A stretch of DNA of 64,000 bases from Pseudomonas frederiksbergensis (GTDB lineage: Bacteria > Pseudomonadota > Gammaproteobacteria > Pseudomonadales > Pseudomonadaceae): NCBI RefSeq assembly GCF_900105495.1, contig NZ_FNTF01000002.1:595501-659500 (forward strand). The letters run 5' to 3'. The notes below the pieces were generated by a model, which saw only the letters and a program-made list of their open reading frames with translations, was not told the DNA's origin and did no database searches. Positions 13,734 to 20,703 of the stretch are shown here, in pieces. A program made the position numbers and the translations under genes. Numbering within the stretch: the first letter of the stretch is position 1; each line of letters opens with the position of its first letter.

Positions 13734-14930
13734 ATGTCCCTGCCTAGCCTGCGCCTCAAAGCCAACGCCGACCGTCGCCTGCGAAACGGCCACTTGTGGG
13801 TCTACAGCAACGAAATCGATGTAGCCGCTACGCCTTTGCACGGTTTCAAGGCCGGCGACCAGGCGATCCTCGAAGCCGCCAGCGGCAAGCCGCTGGGCAT
13901 CGTTGCCATGAGCCCGAACAACCTGATCTGCGCCCGCCTCTTGTCGCGCGACATCAAGTTGCCGCTGGACAAGTCGCTGCTGGTGCATCGCCTGAACGTC
14001 GCGCTGTCCCTGCGCGATCGCCTGTTCGACAAGCCGTTCTATCGCCTGGTCTACGGCGATTCCGACCTGTTGCCAGGTCTGGTCGTCGATCGTTTCGGCG
14101 ACATCCTGGTGGTACAGATCGCTTCGGCGACCATGGAAGCCCATAAAGAAGACGTGATCGCAGCGCTGACCCAAGTGATCAAGCCTAGCGGCATTCTGTT
14201 CAAGAACGACTCCGCGGCCCGTGATGCCGAAGGCCTCAACCGCTACGTCGAAACCGTGTTCGGCCTGGTGCCGGAGTGGGTTGCGCTGGAAGAAAACGGC
14301 GTGAAATTCGAAGCGCCCGTCATCCAGGGACAGAAAACCGGCTGGTTCTACGACCACCGCATGAACCGCGCACGCCTGGCACCTTACGCCAAAGGCAAAC
14401 GCGTACTGGACCTGTACAGCTACATCGGCGGCTGGGGCGTGCAAGCGGCCGCGTTCGGCGCCAGTGAAGTGTTCTGCGTCGATGCATCGGCTTTCGCCCT
14501 CGACGGCGTCGAGCGCAACGCCGCGCTGAACGGTTTCGCCGACAAGATGACCTGCATTGAAGGTGACGTGTTCGAAGCCCTGAAAGAGCTGAAAGCCAGC
14601 GAAGAGCGTTTCGACGTGATCGTTGCCGATCCTCCGGCGTTCATCAAACGCAAAAAAGACATGAAGAACGGTGAAGGTGCCTACCGTCGCCTGAACGAGC
14701 AAGCCATGCGCCTGCTCAGCAAGGACGGCATCCTGGTCAGCGCTTCGTGCTCGATGCACCTGCCCGAGGACGATCTGCAGAACATCCTGCTGACCAGCGC
14801 CCGTCACCTGGACCGCAATATCCAGATGCTGGAGCGTGGCGGTCAGGGCCCGGATCACCCGGTTCACCCGGCCATCGCCGAAACCCGCTACATCAAGAGC
14901 ATCACCTGCCGTCTGCTGCCAAACAGCTGA
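13734..14930 (+). CDS. rlmI: 23S rRNA (cytosine-C5) methyltransferase, RlmI-like
   Basis: The protein is a SAM-dependent rRNA methyltransferase of the RlmI/RlmK class, expected to form m5C1962 in 23S rRNA. The 398-residue protein has an N-terminal PUA-like RNA-binding domain (LRLKANADRRLRNGHLWVYSNEID), SAM motif I VLDLYSYIGGWGVQAA, the DPPAF motif and the catalytic-cysteine region SCSMHLPEDD. The start at 13734 has CCGGAG 8 bases upstream; an earlier in-frame start runs through the repeat. A clear terminator follows, marking the edge of the accessory operon. Confidence 0.9.
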   Translation: MSLPSLRLKANADRRLRNGHLWVYSNEIDVAATPLHGFKAGDQAILEAASGKPLGIVAMSPNNLICARLLSRDIKLPLDKSLLVHRLNVALSLRDRLFDKPFYRLVYGDSDLLPGLVVDRFGDILVVQIASATMEAHKEDVIAALTQVIKPSGILFKNDSAARDAEGLNRYVETVFGLVPEWVALEENGVKFEAPVIQGQKTGWFYDHRMNRARLAPYAKGKRVLDLYSYIGGWGVQAAAFGASEVFCVDASAFALDGVERNAALNGFADKMTCIEGDVFEALKELKASEERFDVIVADPPAFIKRKKDMKNGEGAYRRLNEQAMRLLSKDGILVSASCSMHLPEDDLQNILLTSARHLDRNIQMLERGGQGPDHPVHPAIAETRYIKSITCRLLPNS

Positions 14931-15131: not shown

Positions 15132-15159
15132 TTGATAAGAATTCATTACAAACTATGAT
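15132..15159 (+). promoter_or_regulatory. Sigma70-like promoter of the peptide/SagB/AurF operon
   Basis: TTGATA (15132-15137) and TATGAT (15154-15159) are 16 bases apart in an AT-rich region. Transcription would begin near 15166, leaving a leader of about 45 bases before the 23-codon peptide gene. No operator repeat is obvious. Confidence 0.6.
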
Positions 15160-15211
15160 TAAGTCGTCACAACGGAGTGACACTCACTATCAACTACAAG
15201 GAGTTTAAAAC

Positions 15212-15283
15212 ATGAAAGCAATTACTCTGGAAACCAACAAACTCGCCAACCTGGCTTTTCTGGTCGCACCAAAAGCCCGCTAA
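15212..15283 (+). CDS. 23-residue peptide, candidate precursor of a modified peptide
   Basis: A short open frame has one of the best ribosome sites in the window (AAGGAG at 15198-15203, 8 bases before ATG). The peptide begins MKAITLETNK, continues with LANLA, and ends FLVAPKAR; it has no Cys or Ser but has two Thr, two Asn and three Lys. It sits between a promoter and a terminator-like hairpin, ahead of genes for a SagB-type dehydrogenase, an AurF-type oxygenase and an exporter. That arrangement fits a highly expressed precursor peptide with readthrough to lower-expressed enzymes. Alternatively it is a regulatory leader peptide, but it has no run of one amino acid that would point to attenuation. 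I do not recognise a family. Confidence 0.65.
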   Translation: MKAITLETNKLANLAFLVAPKAR

Positions 15284-15289
15284 GTAAAT

Positions 15290-15327
15290 AAAACACTGGG
15301 GAGTGCCGGCTACCCAGCGTTTTCTAT
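15290..15327 (+). terminator. Hairpin between peptide gene and enzyme genes (partial terminator)
   Basis: An 11-position stem with one A/C mismatch (left arm 15290-15300, right arm 15313-15323, 12-base loop) ends in TTTT followed by CTAT. It lies 6 bases after the peptide stop and 27 bases before the SagB-type gene. It probably terminates most transcripts after the peptide or protects the short mRNA, letting some polymerase read into the enzyme genes. Confidence 0.6.
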
Positions 15328-15354
15328 GGCAAAAACCAGAGTGAGTCGTCAATC

Positions 15355-16431
15355 ATGCAGATAAACCCTTATATATTCATACTTCCTCGCACGCCCGACC
15401 AAATAGTCTGGGATTACAAGAACCACAAACAATTCGAATTGAATCTTGAATATTCAGCCCGTCTCGCACAGCTTATCGACAATCCTGAAAAGTTTGATGA
15501 CAACAACATAATCGACACGCAACTCCTGAATGCGGGAATACTCACATCTTCCATCCAGACTCCGCTTGAATGGGGCTGGGATGAACTGTCGAAGATATTT
15601 CATATCGGAACCAAGAACATTCCTTGTGAATATACTCCCCAGGATATTAATGAATGGTCGAGACACTACTTGGAGCATTGCGCCGAAGTACTGGCCACTC
15701 CCGCCCCGGAGACCCGACGCACAGAGCCGACAACCGAACGAATTGCCCTGCCTCAACCTTCCTGCTTCCCGGCAAAAGCGCTTGTAGCGACCTTGATCGA
15801 CCGAAAAACCTGTCGCTCCTTCACGGGTGAAAGAGTTTCTCTCGACGCTGTGGGCACGCTTTTGTATTTGTCCCTTGGCTATCTGCGTGAGCGCGACAAT
15901 GACATCGACGAAACCATCGCTGAAGGTCTCGGCGCCCGGCGCAGCAGCCCCTCCGGCGGAGGGTTGAATGCCTGCGACGGTTTTCTTCATGTTCAGAACG
16001 TCAGTGGCCTGGATCCTGGGCTCTACGCCTACCACCCCGACGAACATGCTCTGAGCTTCGTCAATCCAACGCCTGATTTGCCCTTGGGCCAGTTGTTGTG
16101 TGGGCAGCACTTCATCAACAACCTGCCAGTCGGGCTGTTCATCACCGCTCGCTTCGACAAACTGTGGTGGAAATATGAACACTCACGGGCCTACCGAATG
16201 GCTTATGTCGAGGCTGGTCATATCTCCCAGACCTTTCAACTGGTGGCCACCGCACTTGGGTTAAGCACCTGGCTGACGGGTGCACTGGCCGACGACCAGG
16301 TCGAAACGTTGCTGGGGATCGAGGACAGCGCCGAACAACCGTTGTTTTTTGTCGGCTGCGGCCAGAGTGACGGGCAAGTGATGTGCAAGGAATTGAAAGC
16401 ACTGCTAAGCAGCCGGGGGCCACAACAATGA
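15355..16431 (+). CDS. SagB/ThcOx-family nitroreductase-like FMN dehydrogenase
   Basis: The 358-residue protein carries a C-terminal SagB-type nitroreductase domain: TCRSFTGERVSLDAVGTLLYLSLGY (about 152-176), the FMN-binding ARRSSPSGGGLNACDGF (194-210), YAYHPDEHAL, and EAGHISQTFQLVATALGL (286-303). SagB enzymes oxidise azoline rings in peptide natural products or carry out other flavin-dependent dehydrogenations. The first 85 residues (WDYKNHKQFELNLEYSARL, later LLNAGILTS) look like a small winged-helix, possibly a peptide-recognition element. Several rare ATA codons occur at the start. The stop overlaps the next start as ATGA. No YcaO cyclodehydratase is present, so an azole product is not implied. 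Confidence 0.85.
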   Translation: MQINPYIFILPRTPDQIVWDYKNHKQFELNLEYSARLAQLIDNPEKFDDNNIIDTQLLNAGILTSSIQTPLEWGWDELSKIFHIGTKNIPCEYTPQDINEWSRHYLEHCAEVLATPAPETRRTEPTTERIALPQPSCFPAKALVATLIDRKTCRSFTGERVSLDAVGTLLYLSLGYLRERDNDIDETIAEGLGARRSSPSGGGLNACDGFLHVQNVSGLDPGLYAYHPDEHALSFVNPTPDLPLGQLLCGQHFINNLPVGLFITARFDKLWWKYEHSRAYRMAYVEAGHISQTFQLVATALGLSTWLTGALADDQVETLLGIEDSAEQPLFFVGCGQSDGQVMCKELKALLSSRGPQQ

Positions 16432-17405
16432 CCGAGCCTCGCACAGACGACCTGTCACTGCCCGACGCCTGGGCACAGCGCTACACCCTCGGTGACTGGA
16501 ACAGCCGAGCCTCGGTACGCACCAGCGAACATACCTATCAATTGCCATCCGATCTGGAACGGCAACTGGAAACACGACACTGGTTCCCGCCCGCCTTCCT
16601 GTCCTACCTGAATCACCCGGTGATCGAAGCCGCCGGCAGCGCGATCATCCATCGATTGTCGGCCAACCATCTGGTGTATTTCCTCGACTACACCACCCGG
16701 CTCGAACATCGGATCGTCAACCGCTCCGTGGAAACCATCGTCCACGATGAGCTCGGGGTGTCCATCCCCCGCCGAATGAAAACCGCCGCCCTCCAGCTGT
16801 ATACCGATGAGGGTTATCACGCGCTGTTCTCCAACAGTCTCGCCGAGCAGATCGCCGACCTCTACGGCATGAACCAGCGCCCGGTGATGCCACGTCGCAT
16901 TACCCGACTGAACGCCCTGCTTGACCAGGCACCTGACAGGCATAAGGCGCTGGCCTGGTTTCTCGTCGGTTTCGTGTCCGAGACCATCATCGCCCGGGAA
17001 CTGCTCGAGGTTTGCCGCAACGAGCTAGTGTCCAGCGTCCAGGAAATGCTCAGGGACCACCTCACCGACGAGGCCCGGCACAGTCGTTATTTTTGCCAAG
17101 TGTTCCATTATCTGTGGCTGACCCTGAACAGCAGCCAACGCACGTTCGCCGCGAAACTGCTGGTGGACATCATCCTGATGTTCTTTGAGGTCGATGAGCG
17201 ATGGCTGAAGGGAAGCCTGAACAGCGTGGACCTCGGGGAAAATTGTGTCGCAGAAATCCTCAGTACCTTGACCGGCCCGCAAGCCTGCCTTCAGCGCGCC
17301 CGATCAGGTGCTGGCGCGACGCTCCAGGCAATGGAGAAGGCAGGTTTTTTCGACCTGCCGTTTAACCAGCAGCTCTTCGCACAGGCGGGACTTGTCGATG
17401 GATGA
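16428..17405 (+). CDS. AurF-type di-iron oxygenase
   Basis: The 325-residue protein fits the p-aminobenzoate N-oxygenase (AurF) family. Two E-x(28-37)-D-E-x2-H iron-binding motifs are visible: E93 to D127-E128-x2-H131 (DEGYH) and E185 to D214-E215-x2-H218 (DEARH). Family members oxidise amines to hydroxylamine, nitroso or nitro groups, or make other oxidations using a di-iron site. The ATG at 16428 overlaps the SagB-gene stop, giving tight coupling. An in-frame start 45 bases earlier lies inside the preceding gene and lacks a ribosome site. The substrate is unknown; with a peptide gene upstream, a lysine or terminal amine of the peptide, or a derived amino acid, is possible. Confidence 0.85.
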   Translation: MTEPRTDDLSLPDAWAQRYTLGDWNSRASVRTSEHTYQLPSDLERQLETRHWFPPAFLSYLNHPVIEAAGSAIIHRLSANHLVYFLDYTTRLEHRIVNRSVETIVHDELGVSIPRRMKTAALQLYTDEGYHALFSNSLAEQIADLYGMNQRPVMPRRITRLNALLDQAPDRHKALAWFLVGFVSETIIARELLEVCRNELVSSVQEMLRDHLTDEARHSRYFCQVFHYLWLTLNSSQRTFAAKLLVDIILMFFEVDERWLKGSLNSVDLGENCVAEILSTLTGPQACLQRARSGAGATLQAMEKAGFFDLPFNQQLFAQAGLVDG

Positions 17406-18603
17406 AGGAAAATCCGCGGTCAGTGTCAAACACCGCCGCTCTGCCATCACCCTGTTAATGACCATGGTATTGCTCGGGGTCTTCCCTCTGGATGTCCTGC
17501 TGCCATCGTTCCCGGCGCTGGCCGAACACTTCCGGACCACCCCAGGCGACATCGCGTTTTCCATCAGTCTGTTTGCCATCGGGATCGCACTGTCCCAACT
17601 GCTGGTCGGGCCGCTCTCGGATGTCATCGGGCGTAAAAGTCTGCTGCTGGGTGGGATGGCGGTCTCGATTGTCGGTGCGACAGGTTGCGTGCTGTCCACC
17701 GACTACGCCTGGTTCCTGGTGTTCCGGGTGGTGCAGGCCATCGGCTGTGGTTGCTTCGTACTCTCGCAGGCGCTGATCCAGGACCTGTTCGACGGCAAGG
17801 AGCGGGACCAACTGCGGATTCTGATGGTTACCGCCAGCGGCATCTTCATTTCCGTCTCGCCACTGGCTGGCACCCTGTTGCAACAGGCACTGGACTGGCC
17901 CGCAAGCTTCATTGTCTTTATTGCCCTCGCCGCCGCCGTGTTCCTCAAGGCCTGCTTCTTTCTTGAAAACCGGCACACCGCCACCACCCCGCGCCGAAGC
18001 ATTCTTCAGTCCTACCGGCGTGTCTGTAGCGATGCAGGGTTCCTCGGCTATTGGCTGATCGCCGCAATCGCCTTCACCTGCCACTTTTCCTTCATTGTCA
18101 TCTCACCCCTGATCTTCATGGAGCAGTTACAGCTTTCAGCCTACGAGTTTTCCCTGACACTGCTGCTGTATGGCGTGGCCTACATCTTCGGCGGCATTGT
18201 CGCTCGAACCCTCGCCGGGCGGATCGCGGCCCATACACAGATCGTCGTCGGCCTGGGCCTGATCTTCTTTTCGGGGCTGGTGATGCTCTTGCTCTCAAAC
18301 CGGCTGGGGCTTTCAGCCCTGACCGTGCTGATTCCGATGATCATCTGCACCGCCGGCACGACCATCGTCCGCCCTGTCGCCACCTCCAAAGCCATGGAAG
18401 TGTTCCCGGACAATGCCGGCACATCGGCGTCGGCCGGAAACACGCTGGTGTTCATCTGCGGTGGCCTGATCAGCGCCCTGATCAATCTCAGTGGAGCCCA
18501 TCTGCAAACGACTCTGGCGTTGAGTTTCCTCGTCTTGAGCACCGTCGGCGTTTCCTTCAATGCGCTGATCACGCGTCGGCAGCTCTCATTGAATAGCGGG
18601 TGA
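17398..18603 (+). CDS. MFS drug-resistance-type exporter (Bcr/CflA-like)
   Basis: The 401-residue membrane protein has about 12 hydrophobic segments. It shows the MFS motif between helices 2 and 3 (GPLSDVIGRKSLLLGG), the N-terminal FPLDVLLPSFPALAEHF typical of Bcr/CflA drug exporters, and a cytosolic start. The start ATG at 17398 overlaps the oxygenase stop by 8 bases. As the last gene of the operon, it is the natural candidate to export the product or to confer self-resistance. Substrate cannot be assigned from sequence. Confidence 0.87.
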   Translation: MDEGKSAVSVKHRRSAITLLMTMVLLGVFPLDVLLPSFPALAEHFRTTPGDIAFSISLFAIGIALSQLLVGPLSDVIGRKSLLLGGMAVSIVGATGCVLSTDYAWFLVFRVVQAIGCGCFVLSQALIQDLFDGKERDQLRILMVTASGIFISVSPLAGTLLQQALDWPASFIVFIALAAAVFLKACFFLENRHTATTPRRSILQSYRRVCSDAGFLGYWLIAAIAFTCHFSFIVISPLIFMEQLQLSAYEFSLTLLLYGVAYIFGGIVARTLAGRIAAHTQIVVGLGLIFFSGLVMLLLSNRLGLSALTVLIPMIICTAGTTIVRPVATSKAMEVFPDNAGTSASAGNTLVFICGGLISALINLSGAHLQTTLALSFLVLSTVGVSFNALITRRQLSLNSG

Positions 18604-18861: not shown

Positions 18862-20703
18862 ATGCCTGATTACCGCTCGAAAACATCCACCCATGGCCGC
18901 AACATGGCCGGCGCCCGCGCACTGTGGCGCGCAACGGGGATGAAAGATGACGACTTCAAAAAGCCGATCATCGCCATTGCCAACTCCTTCACCCAGTTCG
19001 TACCGGGCCACGTCCACCTCAAGGACCTGGGCCAACTGGTCGCCCGCGAAATCGAACGCGCCGGCGGTGTAGCCAAAGAATTCAACACCATCGCCGTAGA
19101 TGACGGCATCGCCATGGGCCACGACGGCATGCTGTATTCGCTGCCGAGCCGCGAGATCATCGCCGACTCCGTCGAGTACATGGTCAACGCCCACTGCGCC
19201 GACGCGATCGTCTGCATCTCCAACTGCGACAAGATCACCCCTGGCATGCTGATGGCCGCCCTGCGCCTGAACATCCCGGTGATCTTCGTTTCCGGCGGCC
19301 CGATGGAAGCCGGCAAGACCAAACTGGCCAGCCACGGTCTCGACCTCGTCGACGCCATGGTGATCGCCGCCGACTCCAGCGCTTCTGACGAGAAAGTCGC
19401 TGAGTACGAGCGCAGCGCCTGCCCGACCTGCGGCTCGTGCTCCGGCATGTTCACCGCCAACTCGATGAACTGCCTGGTCGAAGCCCTGGGCCTGGCATTG
19501 CCGGGCAACGGTTCGACCCTCGCCACCCACAGCGACCGCGAGCAGCTGTTCCTGCAGGCCGGCCGCACCATCGTCGAGCTGTGCAAGCGTTACTACGGCG
19601 ACAACGATGAGTCGGTATTGCCGCGCAACATCGCCAACTTCAAGGCGTTCGAAAACGCCATGACGCTGGACATCGCCATGGGCGGCTCCACCAACACCAT
19701 CCTGCACTTGCTGGCCGCGGCCCAGGAAGCCGAGATCGATTTCGACCTGCGCGACATCGACCGTCTCTCCCGTCACGTGCCGCAACTGTGCAAAGTCGCG
19801 CCGAACATCCAGAAGTACCACATGGAAGACGTGCACCGCGCCGGCGGGATCTTCAGCATCCTCGGCTCGCTGGCCCGTGGCGGTCTGCTGCACACCGACC
19901 TGCCGACCGTGCACAGCAAAACCCTGGCTGAAGGCATCGCCAAGTGGGACATCACCCAGACCGATGACGAAGCGGTGCATCACTTCTTCAAGGCCGGCCC
20001 TGCGGGCATCCCGACGCAAACCGCGTTCAGCCAGTCGACCCGTTGGGAAACCCTGGACGACGACCGTGAAAACGGCTGCATCCGCAGTGTCGAACACGCT
20101 TATTCGAAAGAAGGCGGCCTGGCTGTTCTCTACGGCAACATCGCGCTGGACGGCTGCGTGGTGAAAACCGCCGGCGTCGACGAGTCGATTCATGTCTTCG
20201 AAGGCAACGCGAAGATCTTCGAAAGCCAGGACAGCGCAGTACGCGGCATCCTCGCGGACGAAGTGAAGGCCGGCGACATCGTGATCATTCGTTACGAAGG
20301 TCCGAAAGGCGGCCCGGGCATGCAGGAAATGCTGTACCCGACGTCGTACCTGAAATCCAAAGGCCTGGGCAAAGCTTGCGCCCTGCTCACCGATGGCCGT
20401 TTCTCCGGCGGCACCTCGGGCCTGTCCATCGGCCACGCTTCGCCAGAAGCGGCTGCCGGTGGCGCGATTGGCCTGGTGCAGGATGGCGACAAAGTGCTGA
20501 TCGACATTCCGAACCGCTCGATCAACCTGTTGATCAGCGACGAAGAAATGGCCGGTCGCCGTGCCGAGCAGGATCAGAAAGGCTGGAAGCCAGTGGAAAA
20601 ACGTCCACGCAAGGTAACCACCGCACTGAAGGCTTACGCTCTGTTGGCGACCAGCGCCGACAAGGGTGCCGTGCGTAACAAGGCGATGCTCGACGGGCTC
20701 TAA
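18862..20703 (+). CDS. ilvD: Dihydroxy-acid dehydratase
   Basis: IlvD dehydrates 2,3-dihydroxy-3-methylbutanoate and its homologue to 2-oxo acids in valine, isoleucine and leucine synthesis. The 613-residue protein has the family landmarks: the cluster cysteine in [34 protein letters not shown], and the C-terminal [21 protein letters not shown]. The length is normal for the bacterial long form. A CCGGAG site precedes the ATG. The 257-base gap upstream separates it from the exporter gene and should hold its own promoter. An incomplete terminator and a repeat follow it. Confidence 0.98.

Follow-up and report, generated by a model that had tools for sequence, protein, structure and literature searches.

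A compact Pseudomonas operon linking a 23-residue peptide to SagB- and AurF-type enzymes, a probable RiPP-like pathway

What does a 23-codon gene do immediately upstream of genes for a flavin dehydrogenase, a diiron oxygenase and an exporter? The question is raised by a four-gene unit in a 64,000-nucleotide stretch of DNA from the soil bacterium Pseudomonas frederiksbergensis (hereafter the window; assembly GCF_900105495.1, contig NZ_FNTF01000002.1, positions 595,501–659,500), which lies inside a 6.39 Mb Pseudomonas genome. Direct reading of the forward strand places the peptide gene at 15212–15283, sagB at 15355–16431, aurF at 16428–17405 and a major facilitator superfamily (MFS) gene at 17398–18603, with sagB and aurF overlapping by 4 bases and aurF and the MFS gene by 8. 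An original prediction, made from the letters of the window, took the peptide to be the substrate, or the source of a modified amino acid, in a pathway resembling those of ribosomally synthesized and post-translationally modified peptides (RiPPs). From sequence comparison and a structure model, we consider it very probable that the unit is a compact RiPP-like biosynthetic operon, in which a RiPP recognition element (RRE)-like domain would grip the peptide, SagB would dehydrogenate it, AurF would oxygenate it and the MFS protein would act as exporter. This part of the prediction survives, with the RRE-like domain predicted on SagB as an independent argument; its chemical guess is not supported.

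A conserved peptide gene in one SagB clade

The window peptide, MKAITLETNKLANLAFLVAPKAR, ends at a TAA stop and contains three Lys, no Cys, no Ser and two Thr (positions 5 and 8) at variable positions. A scan of genomes gave 115 pattern matches and 103 SagB relatives, of which the best 80 of 103 were kept; an initial script detected it in 79 of these 80 loci, and the exception (L052) has a peptide with a weaker ribosome-binding site. Further genomes enlarged the set to 206 loci having a SagB match, a set that excludes G044, G159 and G169, in which SagB is present as fragments only. The peptide motif was written after the first peptides had been seen, and it was widened after its first version missed 15 of the 206 loci, seven of which, all clade members, showed a peptide when read by eye. 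With the widened motif, a peptide gene is present in 198 of 206 loci; the eight without one are six members of another, larger SagB family (L130 and L202–L206) and two loci outside the genus (L131 and L132). This association is beyond chance, and the 198 loci are to be read as non-independent, many representing the same genome (distinct leader sequences, n = 154). A putative precursor encoded beside the enzymes, as expected of a RiPP system, appears in 198 of 198 clade loci retrieved. The original prediction had named two countersigns, SagB-AurF-MFS operons lacking a conserved upstream peptide gene and a peptide unconserved beside a conserved hairpin; none of the 198 loci lacks the gene, and conservation is seen in peptide and hairpin alike.

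Several features indicate that the gene is conserved as protein. In 110 distinct genes of 23 codons, the ratio of nonsynonymous to synonymous change (pN/pS, uncorrected) averages 0.41, and Ala12-Asn13-Leu14 are the residues that never vary after Met, their codons varying (4, 2 and 5 codons, respectively). Of the other two forward frames, one is interrupted in all 110 genes and the other in 88. The C-terminal residues are more variable than the middle, the basic end excepted. We annotate residues 1–7 as a putative leader strand, residues 11–17 as a putative core and Asn13 as the candidate site of modification. As a general genomic element the peptide was rejected, because places matching its pattern away from the sagB locus numbered 4 of 60 against 2 in the control. 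In three loci (L052, L049 and L070), the sagB frame is cut short while the upstream peptide gene is intact, and the operon seems to be decaying in some strains.

One SagB clade is common to four operon types. Type A (SagB-AurF-MFS, 179 loci), to which the window's operon belongs, encodes peptides of 21–26 residues with [AE]-N-[LMWF]. In type B (SagB-MFS without AurF, 11 loci, 21–22 residues), AAF, GHH, HHH or GFH replaces ANL in an alignment made by eye. Type C (SagB-carbamoyltransferase-MFS; L123, L124, L128 and L129) has peptides of 55–58 residues beginning M[KN]RV[TI]IEPTLNNQSNDAYQTPHFS and constitutes another RiPP-like type, and type D (SagB-methyltransferase-carbamoyltransferase-MFS; L126, L127 and L200) has a 33-residue peptide containing LSN[DN]AY. 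One further clade locus, L118, is truncated by a contig end; it carries the same peptide as L116 on another contig of that genome, through either duplication or assembly overlap. All peptides fit M-x-x-[IVA]-x-[ILM]-[EQ], which was also the motif used to collect them, and the types diverge after it. As read from these sequences, a shared start followed by a type-specific remainder is the pattern of a recognition leader and a core.

A SagB match at cut-off occurs in 119 of 398 sampled Pseudomonas genomes, four of them matching only another SagB family, which leaves about 29% with operon types A–D and decayed copies pooled. Outside Pseudomonas, at an E cut-off of 1e-45, 369 genomes of the class yielded only the window's own genome and one weak match (G664), and 398 genomes of the phylum yielded one further match outside the genus (G699, locus L131). 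In this outgroup locus, L131 (1493–3112), the open reading frame (ORF) just upstream of the SagB relative ends in GGGGGPDKYVTYHAPAVRRAREWR and is possibly another precursor; it matched no NCBIfam model.

Candidate enzymes and the case for Asn13

SagB (358 residues) scores 118.8 bits against the TIGR03605 cut-off of 78.4, which places it in the SagB family, and its predicted structure combines an RRE-like N-terminal domain, modelled in the first 75 residues (15355–15579), with a nitroreductase-fold FMN catalytic domain. No Pfam family was found for the N-terminal domain, and the RRE-like region that precedes the FMN domain in ThcOx matches it. An RRE- or PqqD-type fold fused to a modifying enzyme or encoded next to it is common, not universal, in RiPP systems, and the model suggests one here. 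The best NCBIfam match of this SagB, as of four relatives, is TIGR04511 (E = 7.1e-48), a putative peptide maturation dehydrogenase; membership was rejected by score (163.6 bits against a curated cut-off of 240). TIGR04511 enzymes are said to be accompanied by a precursor and a cyclase, companions that are not seen here.

The AurF homologue (325 residues; AurF PF11583, 66.7 bits against 29.6) looks competent. Seven positions (E93, E128, H131, E185, H211, E215 and H218) are invariant in 33 AurF sequences down to 30% identity and coincide with corresponding residues of AurF 3chh/2jcd, which we take to be the iron ligands. Family score and ligand positions together indicate an AurF-type diiron oxygenase, one of four AurF-family matches in the genome. 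It shares the Pfam family and all seven metal-ligand positions with the p-aminobenzoate N-oxygenase AurF and falls outside the 4-aminobenzoate N-oxygenase model NF045603 (45.8 bits against a curated cut-off of 620).

Our proposal runs as follows. The peptide would be made in abundance, judging by ribosome-binding energies with a median of −8.0 kcal/mol across 154 peptide genes and of −2.4 kcal/mol across 144 sagB genes. The RRE-like domain of SagB would hold residues 1–7 (M-K-x-I-x-L-E) as a β-strand, the FMN domain would dehydrogenate a residue in the conserved middle segment and the diiron enzyme would oxygenate that segment too, with Asn13 or a neighbouring residue as the likeliest site. 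Because the operon contains no protease gene, we assign trimming to cell peptidases, after which the MFS protein would export a small product. The near-invariance of the middle segment suggests a single defined small product, comparable to pyrroloquinoline quinone (PQQ) from its precursor PqqA, and not a diversified peptide family.

Asn13 is singled out by its distribution: every one of the 91 distinct peptides of type A carries it, and the nine of type B lack it. The earlier suggestion of amine oxidation at Lys is not supported, since Ala12-Asn13-Leu14 are the invariant residues and Asn13, not Lys, tracks AurF; Lys10 is found in 78 of the 110 distinct genes and Lys21 in 104. Lys2 (109 of 110) sits in the leader-like stretch and could still be a target. 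The observation that the peptide has neither Cys nor Ser is correct for the window peptide and does not extend to all relatives, as Cys16 occurs in 14 of 110.

It is also conceivable, if on balance unlikely, that SagB uses the peptide and AurF does not, the oxygenase acting on a free amine or a later-released fragment and the link to Asn13 being historical. AurF itself acts on a small amine, and two further observations weigh against Asn13 as the oxygenase's target. First, type B forms one group in 88% of bootstrap trees of SagB (101 rows after removal of near copies and sequences below 330 residues; 2 rows in no group), with its position among type A lineages not firmly resolved; type B requires one change only on the tree, so AurF and Asn may have changed together just once. 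Second, types C and D have an Asn in SN[DN]AY and no AurF, which makes Asn a weaker sign of AurF outside types A and B. Against a purely historical link, Asn13 has persisted in every distinct peptide of the AurF-type operons even though SagB identity among them drops to about 40%, and the same site is variable in the type B operons.

The hairpin and a possible regulatory role

Between the peptide gene and sagB lies an RNA hairpin (15291–15322, plus strand) with a 10-position stem and the loop GAGTGCCGGCTA. The window's intergenic fold is not unusual in energy (z = −0.89); 99 of 153 distinct intergenic regions (64.7%) fall below z = −2. The hairpin is operon-specific: of 137 distinct intergenic regions of type A, 128 contain GCCGG (base-shuffle rate 0.12) and 111 contain [AG]TGCCGGC, and GCCGG is found in 1 of 10 regions of type B and 0 of 7 of types C and D. 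The conserved loop, AGTGCCGGC, includes the palindrome GCCGGC and is carried on a covarying stem. In 67 hairpins, hand-picked for variety from 110 distinct ones and chosen by loop motif, not pairing, 88.2% of stem cells pair (73.3% in shuffles), 122 cells have changed on both sides (40.7 in shuffles) and the covariation score is 0.517 (0.252 in shuffles), values reached in 0 of 500 shuffles. Nine of the 10 stem pairs show changes on both sides, an unexceptional count (93 of 500 shuffles), and shifting the partner by one column lowers pairing to 57% or less.

Searches with a covariance model tie the hairpin to this locus. In the window's own genome they returned one clear match (E = 1.2e-10), its reverse strand (0.012) and a remainder at E of 0.6 or more. 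Across 149 genomes of the genus there were 48 matches at E of 0.01 or better, 38 of them at sagB coordinates, comprising all 37 at 2.6e-6 or better and one weaker (G106); the other ten (4e-4 to 9e-3) lie off sagB and were taken as chance. Three type A genomes (G096, G117 and G119) gave no hairpin match under stricter filters. No Rfam family matched the window at its gathering threshold, and a sub-threshold STnc370 match on the minus strand (25.1 of 54 bits, E = 0.28) was judged to be chance.

This hairpin underlies the strongest rival to a substrate role, namely that the peptide is a regulatory leader acting by arrest or attenuation, with the hairpin switching sagB-aurF-MFS and the enzymes working on a free small molecule. 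Leader peptides regulate some resistance exporters, and the MFS gene here resembles those of drug exporters; each of the four operon types includes examples with a hairpin after the peptide, and in type A this hairpin has a conserved loop and a covarying stem. The distance from stop codon to stem is 7 or 8 bases in 90 of 112 cases, yet it ranges from 6 to 24, and TTTT comes after the stop in fewer than half of the leaders (65 of 137). In arrest peptides the C-terminal residues are usually the constrained ones, whereas here they vary more than the middle, apart from the basic end. A ribosome-mediated attenuator in which the hairpin's 5′ arm pairs with the peptide ORF was rejected for this pairing geometry, such pairing being no better than in synonymous recodings (136 leaders, median z = +0.28). 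Retention of the hairpin in the whole-leader fold (66 of 137) speaks neither way. Together with the RRE-like domain predicted on SagB and the change of residues past position 7 along with the tailoring enzymes, these observations leave a solely regulatory peptide quite improbable; substrate and regulatory roles could coexist.

Upstream, the peptide gene's Shine-Dalgarno sequence (AAGGAG, 15198–15203) is preceded by a promoter-like TTGATA-16-TATGAT (15132–15159, 10 of 12 matches). The latter is no evidence by itself, because the region holds two sites of this quality and shuffles give 1.6; 9 of 10 examined relatives keep CTAT(G/T)AT at the same place. Right behind the −10 site, at the presumed transcript start, lies the inverted repeat GTCAC-N6-GTGAC (15166–15181), an operator or a 5′-end stem-loop; of 134 distinct upstream regions of type A, 82 contain TCAC-N5..8-GTGA, as do 0 of 17 of other types (base-shuffle rate 0.004). 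The hairpin and this repeat may act on a short, abundant message for the peptide, stabilising it or cutting it off. The original prediction's promoter (here a promoter-like site), well-initiated 23-codon gene, hairpin and stop/start overlaps are all in place, as are its gene families, the MFS protein (401 residues, Bcr/CflA-like) scoring 149.7 bits against an MFS_1 cut-off of 33.4. The unit is flanked by genes ending at 14930 and starting at 18862, which from their sequences we take to be RNA-methyltransferase-like and ilvD-like, respectively.

Relation to known systems

Family profile searches matched the operon's genes to the SagB/nitroreductase, AurF and MFS families only, in agreement with the earlier remark that it has neither YcaO nor radical SAM genes. 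The SagB-type azoline oxidases ThcOx and McbC share the nitroreductase-fold FMN domain and work after a YcaO-type cyclodehydratase on Cys, Ser or Thr, whereas this operon has no such gene and, across the 110 distinct peptide genes, no Cys, Ser or Thr position is conserved, the window peptide having none past position 8. A degenerate thiazole/oxazole-modified microcin (TOMM) or linear azol(in)e-containing peptide (LAP) pathway, with SagB oxidising azolines supplied by a YcaO enzyme whose gene lies elsewhere, is highly improbable: the catalytic-domain relatives of SagB include azoline oxidases and some peptides carry Cys16, but the genome's sole YcaO match, in a frame of 736 residues, the length of the housekeeping Escherichia coli type, is some 318 kb away from sagB, and the window peptide's Thr residues are at variable positions. 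A further parallel is PQQ, whose PqqA precursor has about 23 residues, varies little and is recognised by a PqqD-type domain; PQQ biosynthesis differs in its precursor and enzymes, including a radical SAM enzyme.

The nearest published relative found, among the matches listed in the open-access literature, is cluster OS3 of Pseudomonas sp. Os17, which in the matched passages of its report (PMC7726476) has neither sagC nor sagD beside its SagB-type dehydrogenase and its small putative precursor. Those passages otherwise describe a different SagB cluster, with an 85-residue nitrile-hydratase-like protein, an acetyltransferase, an HEXXH protein and a 650-residue SagB (PMC7726476). That length fits the second Pseudomonas SagB family seen here (L202–L206 and L130; open frames of 558–737 residues), which lacks the peptide and, by size, may be that of OS3. 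In the open-access literature searched, we found no report of SagB and AurF together, nor, among the matches listed, of this operon or of the two enzymes combined with a precursor of 23 residues in the absence of YcaO.

SagB enzymes with an RRE are already known, as are AurF oxygenases, and there is a real chance that their combination marks a new RiPP class, should the chemistry be demonstrated. As a tentative proposal, which we hold at somewhat less than even odds, an RRE-bearing, YcaO-independent SagB and an AurF-type oxygenase would act on the 23-residue peptide, the diiron oxygenase oxidising the nitrogen of the invariant Asn, perhaps to an N-hydroxy amide, so that a small N-oxidised metabolite is made and exported; in sister operons the same leader and SagB core would be joined to carbamoyltransferase or methyltransferase tailoring, and the hairpin with its conserved AGUGCCGGC loop would set the peptide-to-enzyme dosage. 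If the RiPP-like reading of the operon is right, an overlooked pathway to a peptide-derived metabolite is present in about 29% of the Pseudomonas genomes sampled, with a precursor shorter than most gene callers accept. RiPP chemistry would then gain AurF-type diiron oxygenation, the action of a SagB without azolines would be revealed and a minimal two-enzyme system would be available for the bench.

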